Shown here piece by piece: positions 20,323 through 40,874 of a stretch of DNA of 64,000 nt. Source of the stretch: Pseudoalteromonas distincta. Its GTDB lineage: Bacteria; Pseudomonadota; Gammaproteobacteria; Enterobacterales; Alteromonadaceae. The stretch spans positions 248,001-312,000 of the forward strand of contig NZ_JWIG01000029.1 in the NCBI RefSeq assembly GCF_000814675.1. Direction: 5' to 3'. Each line of letters starts with the position of its first letter. Position 1 is the first letter of the stretch. The translations under genes were made by a program, and so were the position numbers. Under the pieces are notes generated by a model, which saw only the letters and a list, made by a program, of their open reading frames with translations, was not told the origin of the DNA and ran no database searches.

Positions 20323-20463
20323 ATACAAAGCCAAGTAATTAGCTAATATAGACTGATTAGAAGCTGCGCTTCTCACGCGAGCAAGCTCAGCGTCTACCGC
20401 CAAGGTTAAATTTACGGTTAACTTGTTAGCGTGACAAGCAAAGCCTTTAATAAGTAATTTATG
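20323..20463. other. Intergenic stretch before the repeat array
   Basis: No convincing gene, RNA or terminator is seen. A short open frame on the minus strand overlaps this stretch and the first repeat, but it has no ribosome-binding site and no recognisable content. Confidence 0.5.
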
Positions 20464-20572
20464 CACTAAGAGGTTAAGAGGCGCTACGCTTTTAGAGAAG
20501 TAAATAAACACCAAACGCAGTTTTTATTAGTATTTTGTCTTCTCATTTACTCCTCTTTCGCTTCTCTTTGTG
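20464..20572 (+). repeat. Palindromic repeat copy R1 (109 bp)
   Basis: First of six same-orientation copies around the GxxExxY gene. It starts CACTAAGAGGTTAAGAGGCG and ends CGCTTCTCTTTGTG. The two ends pair as an inverted repeat (CACAAAGAG / CTCTTTGTG, one mismatch here), as do inner AGAG-AAGTAAAT and ATTTACTCCTCT segments. The central ~40 bp is the variable part. Confidence 0.85.
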
Positions 20573-20658
20573 AAAATAGATCTTTAGCTGGTTTTTAAAT
20601 AAATTGAATAATTTTAAGCATTGCTTTGTAACAGCAGCGCCTGTAATTAGTGATTTTT

Positions 20659-20767
20659 CACTAAGAGGTTAAGAGGCGCTACGCTTTTAGAGGAAGTAAT
20701 AAAACCGAAACTATACCCTGATTGGTCTTGTCTTTTCTCATTTACTCCTCTTTCGTTTCTCTTTGTG
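20659..20767 (+). repeat. Palindromic repeat copy R2 (109 bp)
   Basis: Same length and orientation as R1. It starts CACTAAGAGGTTAAGAGGCG and ends TTTCTCTTTGTG. It is followed by a 59-bp spacer identical to the one after R4. Confidence 0.87.
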
Positions 20768-20826
20768 CAAATAGATCTTTAGCTGGTTTTTACTGTAACA
20801 GCAGCGCATGTAATTAGTGACTTTTT

Positions 20827-20935
20827 CACTAAGAGGTTAAGAGGCGCTGCTCTTTTAGAGGAAGTAATAAAGCAGAAACTATACTCTGATTGGCATTTTG
20901 TTTTCTCATTTACTCCTCTTTTATTTCTCTTTGTG
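20827..20935 (+). repeat. Palindromic repeat copy R3 (109 bp)
   Basis: The R2-R3 period is 168 bp. Left arm CACTAAGAGGTTAAGAGGCG, right arm ATTTCTCTTTGTG. It is the last copy before the GxxExxY gene, about 180 nt upstream of its start. Confidence 0.87.
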
Positions 20936-21116
20936 CAAATAGTTCTTTAATCGATTTTATTAGTAAATAGCTCAACAAACGAGTGACAACTTAATAAATT
21001 GCTTTATATAGCCTACAAGTATTCAATTTTGTTATTTATTTGTACTACACTTAAGTCTCATTTTAGAACTCTTTCTTAGTTGATTAAATGCTTGTAAATT
21101 AAGCAAAAGGATACCT

Positions 21117-21488
21117 ATGGATACTGATACATTAACAAAAACAGTAATAGGTTGCGCTATAGAAGTACACAGGAATTTAGGCCCAGGGTTATTAGAATCG
21201 AGTTACGAGACTTGCTTAATATATGAATTAAGTAAAATTGGCTTATCTGCTAAAAACCAAGTTGAGCTGCCGATATATTATAAAGATCAATATATAAATA
21301 CAGGTTACCGGTTAGATATTTTATTGCCTAATAAATTAATAATTGAACTAAAGGTGGTTGATAAGCTTCTTCCAATTCACTCTGCACAATTAATAACTTA
21401 TATGAAACTTGCAGAAATAAGTACTGGTTTACTAATAAACTTCAATGTTCTAAAGCTAGTCGATGGCATAAAGCGCTTTAATTCATAA
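21117..21488 (+). CDS. GxxExxY-family protein with PD-(D/E)XK nuclease-like motif
   Basis: A 123-residue protein starting at ATG 21117, with AAAAGGA 5-6 nt upstream. The family signature is HRNLGPGLLESSYETCL, containing G-L-L-E-S-S-Y. A PD-(D/E)XK-like core follows: GYRLDILLPNKLIIELKVVD supplies D...E-x-K, and AQLITYMKL supplies the Q-x3-Y helix. The family (PDDEXK_3/GxxExxY) is predicted to have the restriction-endonuclease fold; its biological role is not established. Here it lies alone, with no operon partner, between two groups of three 109-bp palindromic repeats. Confidence 0.87.
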   Translation: MDTDTLTKTVIGCAIEVHRNLGPGLLESSYETCLIYELSKIGLSAKNQVELPIYYKDQYINTGYRLDILLPNKLIIELKVVDKLLPIHSAQLITYMKLAEISTGLLINFNVLKLVDGIKRFNS

Positions 21489-21565
21489 AAATTATTTACT
21501 TAGGTTTTAAGTCGTTATCCAAAGGGCTATAAGTAACTGTACATTAAATTTTTAAGCGATTTATT

Positions 21566-21674
21566 CACAAAGAGGTTATGAGGCGCTGCGCTTTTAGAGA
21601 AGAAAATAAAACCGAAAACATATCCTGAATAGCATTATGTTTTCTCATTTACTCATCTTTCGCTTCTCTTTGTG
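21566..21674 (+). repeat. Palindromic repeat copy R4 (109 bp)
   Basis: First copy downstream of the GxxExxY gene, same orientation as R1-R3. The left arm is CACAAAGAGGTTATGAGGCG and the right arm CGCTTCTCTTTGTG; the outer 9 bp pair perfectly. Confidence 0.87.
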
Positions 21675-21733
21675 CAAATAGATCTTTAGCTGGTTTTTAC
21701 TGTAACAGCAGCGCATGTAATTAGTGACTTTTT

Positions 21734-21842
21734 CACTAAGAGGGTATGAGGCGCTGCGCTTTTAGAGGAAGTAATAAAGCAGAAACTATACCCTGATTGG
21801 TATTGTGTTTTCTCATTTACTCCTCTTTTGTTTCTCTTTGTG
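21734..21842 (+). repeat. Palindromic repeat copy R5 (109 bp)
   Basis: Lies 168 bp after R4, the same period as R2-R3. It starts CACTAAGAGGGTATGAGGCG and ends TTTCTCTTTGTG. The 59-bp spacer before it matches the R2-R3 spacer base for base. Confidence 0.87.
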
Positions 21843-21933
21843 AAAATAGATCTTTAATTGATTTATTGGTGAATAGACTAAATAATTTAAGCGTGGCTTT
21901 CGTAACAACCGTACCCGTTATAAGTGATTTTTT

Positions 21934-22042
21934 CACAAAGAGGTTAAGAGGCGCTACGCTTTTAGAGGCAGTAATAAAGCAGAAACTATATTCTGATTGG
22001 TATTGTGTCTTCTCATTTACTCCTCTTTCGCTTCTCTTTGTG
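21934..22042 (+). repeat. Palindromic repeat copy R6 (109 bp)
   Basis: Last copy of the array, ending about 35 nt from the stop codon of the convergent PhoD-like gene. It starts CACAAAGAGGTTAAGAGGCG and ends CGCTTCTCTTTGTG, with perfect 9-bp ends. Confidence 0.87.
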
Positions 22043-37412: not shown

Positions 37413-40400
37413 ATGAAACGTATGCTAATCAATGCAACGCAGCAAGAAGAAATGCGCGTAGCACTGGTTGATGGCCAGCGCCTTTATGATTTAGATATCG
37501 AAAGCCCAGGTCACGAACAGAAAAAAGCCAATATTTATAAAGGCAAAATCACTCGCATTGAACCATCTCTTGAAGCAGCATTTGTTGATTACGGTGCTGA
37601 CCGCCATGGTTTCCTTCCTTTAAAAGAAATTGCACGTACTTACTTCCCTGCAGGTTACACTTTTCATGGTCGCCCTAACATTCGCGACGTAATAAAAGAA
37701 GGTCAAGAAGTAATAGTACAAGTTGATAAAGAAGAACGCGGCCAAAAAGGCGCAGCGTTAACTACTTTTATCAGTGTTGCTGGTAGCTATTTAGTTCTTA
37801 TGCCTAATAACCCTCGTGCTGGCGGTATTTCTCGTCGTATTGAAGGTGATGAGCGAACTGAACTTAAAGAAGCATTAGGTCGTTTAGAACTACCTAAAGG
37901 TATGGGCTTAATTGTTCGTACAGCGGGTGTTGGTAAATCATTTGAAGAACTTAACTACGATTTAAAAGCACTATTAGTACATTGGGATGCAATTAAACAA
38001 GCAGCCGATAGTGCTAAAGCACCTTTTTTGATTCACCAAGAAAGCAACGTGATTTTCCGCGCAATACGCGATTATTTACGTCGTGACATTGGCGAAATTT
38101 TAATTGATAAACCACGTGTTTTTGAAGAAGCTAAAGCGCACATTGAGCGTTTTCGTCCTGACTTTATGAGCCGTGTTAAGCTTTATCAAGGTGACACTCC
38201 TTTATTTACACATTACCAAATTGAAAGCCAAATTGAGTCTGCATTCCAGCGTGAAGTACGTCTTCCTTCTGGTGGTTCAATTGTAATTGACCCTACTGAA
38301 GCACTGACATCTATTGATATCAACTCGTCTAAGGCAACTAAAGGCGGCGATATTGAAGAGACAGCACTTAATACAAACTTAGAAGCGGCCGATGAAATTG
38401 CACGTCAATTACGTCTTCGTGACCTAGGTGGTTTAATTGTAATCGACTTTATCGATATGACTCCTCCACGCCATCAACGTGAAGTAGAGAATCGTTTAAA
38501 AGATGCAGCGCGCCCAGACCGTGCTCGCGTTCAAATTGGTAAAATCTCACGCTTTGGTTTACTTGAAATGTCGCGCCAGCGTTTGCGTCCTTCATTAGGT
38601 GAAGCAAGCCAAGGCCCATGTCCACGTTGTAGTGGCCAAGGTACTATTCGTTCAAACGAATCAATAGCACTTTCAATTCTTCGCTTAATTGAAGAAGAAG
38701 CAATTAAAGACAATACAGCACAAGTAAATGCACAAGTGCCTGTTGCTGTCGCCGCTTATTTATTAAATGAGCAACGTCGTAGTGTTCATCGCATTGAAAA
38801 ACATCATAAATGTGACGTAGTGATTATTCCAAATCAACATATGGAAACACCACATTATGAAGTTATGCGCTTGCGTAAAGACGAAACACTTGAAACTGTA
38901 AGTTACGGACAAGTTGTTGCACCGGAGCCTGAAGTATTCGAGATGTCAAAATCTCCTAGTGCGCCAGTCCGTGAAGAGCCGATGCTAAAAGGCGTGGTAA
39001 TGCCTTCTACTCCTGCTCCACAAGCAGCGCCAGCTAAAGCCGTAGAACCTGCTGCGGTAGCACAAACTAAAACTGAAGGTGGCTTACTAGCTGCTATTGG
39101 TAATTGGTTTAAGTCGTTATTTGCAAGTGAATCTGAAGAAGAGAAAAAAGAAGCTGTAGAAAAAGAGCAGCAAGAAACGCGCAATAATGCGCGTCGTGGT
39201 AACGATAATCGTCGTCGTAATAACAATCAACGTCGTCGTAATAATAACCCACGCACTAACAAGCCGCGCAATGAGCGTCCAGCCGCTGAAGAGGAAGCTA
39301 AAACTGACTCAGCAGCAAGCACCGAGACTCAAGAGAGAAGCGAGAACCGCAACAAGCGCCGTCGTAATCCTAACTCTCGTAAGCGCCCAGAGCATAAAAA
39401 CCAAGAAAAAGATCAAGTTAAAACTGAAGCCCCTGCAAAGGCGGAAGTAGAAACTGATTCTAAGCCAGCACAAGCTGCAGAGCCTAAAGAGCAGAAGCCT
39501 AAAGTTCGCCGTCAACGTCGTAACATACGTAAAAAAGTACGTCTGCAAGATGAAAAAGCTGAGCAAGCTAACTCAACAGAGCAAGCACCTGAGCAAACGG
39601 CTGTAACTGAAACTTCACAAGTTCAAGAGCAAGCTCCTGCTGTAGAAAAGCAAAAGCAAGCTCCGGCAGAAAAAACAGCTCACATTAAAGAAGAGAAAGT
39701 TGATGTTGTTGATTCTAACGATGAAACAGCAACTACTGAAGACGAACAAGAGCAAACACGTACACGTTCACGTCGTTCTCCTCGTCATCTTCGTGCATCT
39801 GGTCAACGTCGTCGTCGCCCTGAAGGTGAAGCAGAAGTTAAATCTGATGAAGCCCCTGCATTCATTCCAGTTGCTGATCAAGCTGCTGCAGAATACGAAG
39901 CAGAACTTAAAGCTAAATCAGAAGAAACACCGGTAGATGCGTCGCAACAAGTTGAGCAAGCCGTTGCGGTTGAAGACTTAGCAAAAGTTGAAGCTGTAGA
40001 AGAGCCAGTAAAAGCTAAAGAACCGGCTAAAGTTGAAACGCCAGTAGCCACTGAAGAACCTACTAAAGTTGAAGCGCCAGTAGCAACTGAAGAGCCTGCT
40101 AAAGCTGAAACGCCAGTAGCAACTGAAGAGCCTGCTAAAGTTGAAACACCAGTAGCAACTGAAGAGCCAGCTAAAGTTGAAACACCAGTAGCCACTGAAG
40201 AGCCTGCTAAAGTTGAAACACCAGTAGCCACTGAAGAGCCTGCTAAAGTTGAAACACCAGTAGCAACTGAAGAGCCTGCTAAAGTTGAAACACCAGCAGC
40301 AACTGAAGAGCCTGCTAAAGCTGAAACGCCAGTAGCCACTGAAGAACCTACTAAAGTTGAAACGCCAGTAGCCACTGAAGAGCCTGCTAAAGTTGAAGCA

Positions 40401-40634
40401 AAAGTGAAAACTGAAAAATCAACACCGCATGTTAAAACAGCAGTTACTCAAGGGTCAGCAAGTGCGCCAATGGCACAACCTACTCCTGTAGCTGATAGCG
40501 AAGTGAAACATACTTCTGTAGCAATGGCTCACGATAAACGTGAACTAGTTCCAGACAGTGGTTTACGTGCAGGTTCAATCAAACCTGCTGGTCGTGCAAG
40601 CTCTGCAATGACTAAAACAATGAGTGTTGATTAA
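37413..40634 (+). CDS. rne: Ribonuclease E
   Basis: A 1073-residue endoribonuclease and degradosome scaffold. The S1 domain lies around residues 35-125. The catalytic DNase-like region has [14 protein letters not shown] (Asp near 302) and [11 protein letters not shown] (Asp near 345), and the zinc-link CPRCSGQG is near residue 403. The amphipathic membrane-anchor helix [14 protein letters not shown] is near residue 560. The C-terminal half is disordered, with arginine-rich blocks ([13 protein letters not shown]) and eleven 12-residue [12 protein letters not shown]-type repeats (~869-1000). The end, [14 protein letters not shown], resembles the PNPase-binding tail of gammaproteobacterial RNase E. 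A strong terminator follows. Confidence 0.96.
40018..40407 (+). repeat. 36-bp tandem repeat tract in rne (11 units)
   Basis: In-frame tandem units encode [12 protein letters not shown] with variants [24 protein letters not shown] and [12 protein letters not shown]. Several neighbouring units differ by only a few bases, which indicates recent expansion. It lies in the disordered, acidic part of the degradosome scaffold. Confidence 0.92.
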
Positions 40635-40745: not shown

Positions 40746-40874
40746 CACAAAGAGGTAAAGAGACGCTGCGCTTTTAGAGGTAGTAATAAGTCTAAGTCTT
40801 GCTAACTTTAAAAAGCCCCGCTAGTAAACCATCGCTTGTGTTTCTCATTTACTCCTCTTTCACTTCTCTATGTG
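40746..40874 (+). repeat. Palindromic repeat copy R7 (129 bp, solitary)
   Basis: Same family and orientation as R1-R6: left arm CACAAAGAGGTAAAGAGACG, right arm CACTTCTCTATGTG, and the shared CTCATTTACTCCTCTTTC. The centre is 20 bp longer and contains AAAAGCCCCGCTA, the same word as the left arm of the adjacent rne terminator. Confidence 0.8.

Follow-up and report, generated by a model that had tools for sequence, protein, structure and literature searches.

The window, as we call the whole stretch of 64,000 nucleotides of Pseudoalteromonas distincta DNA that was analyzed, contains a GxxExxY gene within an array of repeats. Mapping of the coordinates confirmed the arrangement given in the original prediction: six copies, every one 109 bp long and all in the same orientation on the forward strand, are placed three to the left and three to the right of a lone gene. 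The features are as follows.

20464..20572, + strand: repeat copy 1, 109 bp, with class A arms (CACWAAGAG ... CTCTTTGTG)
20659..20767, + strand: repeat copy 2, 109 bp
20827..20935, + strand: repeat copy 3, 109 bp
21117..21488, + strand: GxxExxY gene, 123 aa, PD-(D/E)XK fold (profiles; AlphaFold2 model, pLDDT 95.3)
21566..21674, + strand: repeat copy 4, 109 bp
21734..21842, + strand: repeat copy 5, 109 bp
21934..22042, + strand: repeat copy 6, 109 bp
about 40746..40874, + strand: repeat copy 7, longer, with no GxxExxY gene adjoining (core and end matches, ORF reading)

The window gene is placed between whole repeat units and not within one. A 28-base core and a 33-base end of the repeat each match seven times in the window (with up to 3 mismatches) and not at all in 100 dinucleotide shuffles, and the unit common to the copies exceeds 109 bp, forming a 147-nt family at an identity of at least 60%. 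The predicted pairing of the repeat ends is present but imperfect, as four of the six copies start with CACTAAGAG, which has one mismatch to CTCTTTGTG. Folded RNA was considered as an explanation of the repeat and dropped because only one of the six copies folds clearly above its dinucleotide shuffles (z, -4.14; the remaining five, -0.60 to -1.92). Rfam contains no family that fits, its single match sitting outside the repeats at 26.2 bits against a gathering score of 45. The ORF beside the seventh copy (37413-40634), which we take from its sequence to be RNase E-like, has a C-terminal run of near-identical 10-residue units (39878-40630).

The window ORF scores 145.4 bits against TIGR04256 (cut-off, 35), which makes it a member of the GxxExxY family, and 142.1 bits against PF13366 (cut-off, 22), its sole Pfam match at E values up to 1. 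Five residues (D67, E77, K79, Q91, and Y95) are invariant in all 68 aligned proteins and are taken to be catalytic on the basis of the PD-(D/E)XK motif. The best structural matches of the AlphaFold2 model have the PD-(D/E)XK fold; the nearest solved folds are those of SSO0001 (4ic1), presumably a Cas4, and of Hjc resolvases, and there is a weak fold match to I-Bth0305I (E, 0.26). A search of PDB sequences with the protein returned nothing significant. By its modeled fold and catalytic-type residues, the window protein belongs to the PD-(D/E)XK superfamily and is a predicted nuclease, in agreement with the nuclease-like motif first noticed in it. Matches were found in 8 of 72,556 plasmid records and in none of the phage records.

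Repeats and GxxExxY genes in the genus Pseudoalteromonas

The 109-bp repeat has 47 matches in the 4.53-Mb genome, grouped into 12 clusters, and most copies lie away from the window gene. The original prediction had set its proposed association against a genome-wide spread without enrichment at GxxExxY genes; the spread is indeed genome-wide, but the repeats are enriched at the genes. One of the 12 clusters lies at the window gene, and the chance of any cluster falling within 1.5 kb of either of the two PF13366 genes in this genome is about 0.016. The second of these genes (L037:3423-3791, - strand) lies within an array of another palindrome, with CACMGAG iterons, giving two genes, two arrays, and two repeat classes in one genome. 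Read directly, a further cluster (C5) proved to be a tandem array flanked by two ordinary genes that converge on it. In this array (L033:2940-4080), another palindrome (GTAGACGCGAAGCTTGCTTGCGTGACGGG / CACGTGAGCAAGCTC..CTAC) alternates with the 109-bp-like units; it also occurs, as one degenerate copy, upstream of the window array (about 20360-20445).

The GxxExxY gene occurs in 13 of 108 genomes of the genus, in 16 copies in total. Self-repeats were found on both flanks of 15 of the 16 loci, which are not all independent because L048 and L054 share a contig, as do L049 and L055; at the exception (L043, in genome G064), which has 2-3 arm motifs, the contig ends shortly on one side. At least 4 arm motifs are present within 400 bp of 15 of the 16 GxxExxY loci versus 1 of 30 loci of four-helix-bundle genes (PF05635) (p = 4.9e-10), with densities of 16.26 and 0.56 motifs per kb, respectively. 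The anticipated clustering around GxxExxY genes in other Pseudoalteromonas is therefore above chance. Nor do relatives carry the gene without repeats, since arm motifs adjoin it in all 13 gene-bearing genomes, weakly so in G064. Repeat class (A, CACWAAGAG; B, CACVGAG) agrees with protein clade in 15 of 15 loci (duplicate L054 left out), a match that counts as one event rather than fifteen because the division is a single split on the protein tree (SH-aLRT, 95%), and one for which shared ancestry was left uncorrected; the 7-residue classes A and B were first spotted by eye and counted afterwards.

The 109-bp repeat itself is present in 12 of the 13 gene-bearing genomes and in 31 of the 95 gene-less ones (p = 5e-5), with presence scored on 8 candidates per genome, so the total of 43/108 may be an underestimate. 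In the remaining gene-bearing genome (G014), each of the two GxxExxY genes is surrounded by class B arms. The repeat is thus not exclusive to GxxExxY, and its presence also tracks four-helix-bundle genes: it was found in 29 of 38 genomes with such a gene versus 14 of 70 without and, among the genomes lacking GxxExxY, in 21 of 29 versus 10 of 66, those ten having neither gene. The assignment of the repeat to GxxExxY alone was dropped on this account. Because the repeat tracks both families, genome presence alone cannot assign it to GxxExxY; local nesting does.

Four-helix-bundle genes, likewise a small family, come with a different kind of repeat. Tandem 7-mers lie within 400 bp of 24 of 30 PF05635 loci versus 2 of 16 GxxExxY loci (p = 1.8e-5), and the PF05635 genes read directly (L296-L325) sit between inverted arrays of 7-bp units (CCTAGCT, TTTAACC, ACCTAGA, GCTGATA, and others). 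These genes were intended as a control; given their own inverted repeats, the control bears on the motif and not on inverted repeats as such. The upstream flank of one GxxExxY locus (L042, 1001-1500) holds, just before the gene, a four-helix-bundle-like start, atgcaatttgaaaaactggatgtt, followed by an early stop; this start is identical to that of the four-helix-bundle genes L307 and L310.

Inverted arms, shared units, and gene-less palindromes across phyla

A scan of genome contigs yielded at least 579 relatives, the best 80 of which formed the cross-phyla set, a choice that favors proteins resembling those of Pseudoalteromonas. The protein tree of 79 of these loci spans 13 phyla and is clustered by phylum with some mixing, requiring 20 phylum changes (minimum, 12; shuffled mean, 39.1) on a topology in which many forks are unresolved. 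In the flanks of 18 loci that were read, the ORF often lies directly between inverted arms of 9-bp iterons (e.g., CACGAAGNN, CACAGAGNN, and CGCAGAGNN), which differ between loci and tend to match within a locus. Among the 79 loci scored from the best 80 of at least 579 relatives (L142 was unscored), the inverted-arm score was at least 14 in 41 and lower in 38; of 339 neighboring ORFs at these loci, 5 reached this limit, which had been picked from several computed side by side. The respective medians were 14.0 and 8.0 (Mann-Whitney p = 1.6e-27). Inverted iteron pairs reach a density of 5.2-5.7 per kb in the 60 bp next to the ORF and of 0.05-0.14 per kb at distances over 1 kb, a difference of about 40- to 100-fold. 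Pairs in the other orientation show a smaller excess near the ORF (1.7-2.5 per kb), and both arms lie within 300 bp of the ORF at 42 of the best 80 loci.

Scores of at least 14 were also obtained in 24 of 28 scored loci of the family f39 (30 top-scoring loci of this one family, two of them unscored) and in 10 of 18 scored loci from further families of the phylum, a sample made up of 19 of 21 matches lying outside both f39 and the genome of the window (two short fragments were left out, and L344 was unscored). Four of the eight low scorers in the latter sample (L326, L329, L335, and L343) have no visible arm. Terminal inverted repeats thus bound the gene in 41/79, 24/28, and 10/18 scored loci, though not at the window copy. 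The score is not specific to GxxExxY, because four-helix-bundle loci also score high through their other repeat kind (at least 14 in 16 of 28 scored loci, via 7-bp arrays). When the two arms of one locus are scored against each other, the median over 107 loci is 16.5, compared with 8.0 for arms taken from different loci; the own right arm ranks in the top 5% of partners at 52 of these loci, where 5.35 are expected. Arm similarity tracks protein similarity across 64 loci (Mantel r = 0.33, p = 0.0005, with shared ancestry left uncorrected).

Three states were observed at the trpD-trpC site in f39. Among 30 loci, 17 bear the gene, 2 have only the palindrome, and 7 have a 4-bp overlap of the two genes; the rest are 2 short gaps, 1 other, and 1 unreadable. 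Intergenic regions with the gene measure 451-610 bp (882 bp in L212; L201 has a fragment), and the palindrome-only regions are 88 and 92 bp, L209 being counted among these from its sequence and a palindrome-pattern match there (script class, "other"). Stop and start are both kept around the unit, as selection for working genes would also ensure. Within f39, a few operon junctions carry gene-bearing units repeatedly, namely those preceding trpC, pyrC, and sufC (L146-L148, L150, L154-L155, L157-L158, L160-L161, L163-L164, and L170-L171). The gene names (trpD, trpC, pyrC, sufC, ligase, and PhoD-like) are presumptive, being recognized from sequence. At the window site, 6 of 29 relatives have repeats without the gene and 23 have neither (60 of the 108 genus genomes were searched and 30 loci taken); in L215 and L216 the neighboring gene matches end 11 bp apart.

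Some copies share only the unit. Two loci of one MAG (L110/L120) are 82% identical over 424 bp around the ORF and have only short repeat matches elsewhere, and the common sequence of two loci from different phyla (L099/L140) is only 372 bp. In Aequorivita (L109/L114), the units in a syntenic place are 95% identical and their flanks 73-75%, a pattern of identities that suggests a recent transfer or conversion of the unit alone.

Gene-less palindromes were sought with patterns that detect only two-iteron CACVRAG arms, with set gap ranges that differ between the phylum, genus, and named-locus searches and with per-genome counts that include overlapping registers of one palindrome. The strict pattern was found in 29 of 398 genomes of the phylum sample (23 of 64 with the gene versus 6 of 334 without), and the same pattern reversed had no match in these 398 genomes. 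Co-occurrence is weak within f39 alone (17/45 with the gene versus 4/29 without; p = 0.035); outside f39, palindromes are present in 6 of 19 genomes with the gene versus 2 of 305 without, and the stratified odds ratio is 7.1 (p = 4e-6). In the genus, searched with another gap range, the counts are 6 of 13 gene-bearing versus 7 of 95 gene-less genomes, and 11 of the 19 genomes of named loci searched (L079's genome left out) hold gene-less palindromes. In G521 (L245-L262) and G520 (L263-L279), palindromes lie inside larger dispersed repeats and may have been spread by these; the loops, read by eye, differ or face either way relative to identical outer sequence.

Interpretation and relation to known systems

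Collectively, we consider it probable that the GxxExxY gene supplies the protein-coding portion of a very small kind of selfish element, of which the palindromes are relatives that have no gene. Its basic unit would consist of a left arm, an ORF of about 120 codons, and a right arm, roughly 430-460 bp in all, each arm being built from two or three 9-bp iterons that recur inverted in the other. The small PD-(D/E)XK protein most likely recognizes arms of its own class and may cut DNA at or beside them, after which repair of the break would duplicate the unit or relocate it. Palindromes that have these arms but no gene would be its non-autonomous derivatives, produced by loss of the ORF and perhaps acted on in trans, much as has been suggested for REPINs and their RAYTs. 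In Pseudoalteromonas, they are arranged in tandem arrays, and the gene is found either within a unit or between two of them. Besides the ORF, the arms are the part common to the units, and they are matched within the unit and covary with the protein; a nuclease specific to its own arms that spreads through cutting and repair would account for this with few assumptions.

Homing is a less likely explanation. Here the palindrome would have come first, spread by other means, and served as the target, with the nuclease cutting it and the gene being copied in or beside it by repair, so that gene-less palindromes are simply uninvaded. The position of the gene between palindrome arms would be expected, and so would palindromes that outlive or precede the gene in many genomes (31/95 gene-less genomes in the genus, 6/334 in the phylum), the palindrome-only and gene-bearing alleles at trpD-trpC, and the G521 palindromes, whose arms are kept while the loops vary and sit in either orientation to the outer repeat (by eye). 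However, the arms change along with the protein, both inside the genus and across phyla, and seven trpD-trpC alleles have no palindrome at all; barring loss of the palindrome, then, invasion of this site did not require one.

We give still less credence to the gene being a passenger, carried in repeat arrays or inverted-repeat units whose amplification is due to other enzymes or to slippage during replication, with the protein in an unrelated role. The double dissociation of repeat kinds between GxxExxY and PF05635, the match of protein and repeat classes, the finding, in many phyla, of arms that enclose the ORF and nothing else, and the conserved catalytic-type positions all argue against it, even though the 109-bp repeat also tracks four-helix-bundle genes, ten repeat-bearing genomes of the genus have neither gene, and the palindromes of G521 and G520 lie within larger repeats. 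A host function, in which cells would keep the gene and its palindromes for a Cas4- or Hjc-like repair or defense nuclease acting on hairpins or cruciforms, is very improbable: the nearest solved folds and weak matches of two of the four proteins run (one to Cas4 in PADLOC, E, 0.0037; another to a CRISPR-associated PHROG, E, 0.004) point that way, but the gene is patchily present (13/108 genus genomes and 64/398 in the phylum sample), the window protein has no match in PADLOC or PHROGs, and a common fold proves no function.

The reading of GxxExxY genes as the coding part of selfish elements invites comparison with REPtrons, which combine a RAYT (TnpA-REP transposase) with REP or REPIN sequences. 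The suggested resemblance to the RAYT layout, with a different protein family, is borne out by the nesting in the genus, the clade-class match, the arms across phyla, and the palindrome-gene co-occurrence. Published descriptions report two RAYT genes in the SBW25 genome, each next to repeats of a separate class (PMC3116915, PMC8266576, PMC2817692), and RAYTs are reported to be single-copy and not self-mobile (PMC3116915). The two systems have in common a lone small gene with palindromes of the matching class in its vicinity, both clustered and scattered copies, two genes per genome with different repeat classes, a repeat and an enzyme that vary together, and a proposed action in trans. Palindromes of the matching class beside the gene, a feature of REPtrons, are found at GxxExxY loci. 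Unlike the HUH tyrosine transposase of REPtrons, the GxxExxY protein has a PD-(D/E)XK fold (PF13366), and its arms consist of 9-bp iterons that often bound the gene itself. The GxxExxY system works like a REPtron but is not one, as the defining HUH transposase is absent: neither it nor any other known transposase family was found in the window unit, which matches TIGR04256/PF13366 only.

Terminal inverted repeats and gene-less copies with the same ends also recall MITEs and small TIR transposons, although the GxxExxY unit has no DDE or other known transposase, only PF13366. Free-standing homing endonucleases include some of PD-(D/E)XK type, such as I-Ssp6803I, and resemble the present genes in that a small nuclease gene lies inside or beside its likely target and is patchily present. 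Their target is a unique conserved site, whereas the putative GxxExxY target, for which occupied, palindrome-only, and empty alleles are seen at trpD-trpC, is a repeated palindrome. The intervening sequence of 23S rRNA with an S23/four-helix-bundle ORF is described as a 428-nt selfish element with one small ORF (PMC4990558). Its protein is unrelated, and the PF05635 genes of the genus lie among 7-bp tandem arrays and not iteron palindromes. The open-licence PMC papers covered contain no report linking GxxExxY and palindromes, though one may still be published elsewhere.

On balance, we lean toward GxxExxY genes and iteron palindromes forming one class of minimal, nuclease-driven selfish elements that occurs in at least 13 bacterial phyla and in which repeat and enzyme co-evolve; it would have given rise, independently of HUH REPtrons, to a widespread and hitherto unexplained type of CACRRAG palindrome. 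The curated family GxxExxY carries no functional description; in the literature searched, two papers name it in passing and one mentions PF13366. Its tie to palindromes provides a testable substrate for the family and a candidate enzyme for the repeats, as well as a second, non-HUH route to REP-like repeats. A genome that carries one gene of each class, A and B, lends itself to a swap experiment. To our knowledge, a mobile element whose single gene has about 120 codons and whose arms measure about 28 bp would rank among the smallest that carry a gene.
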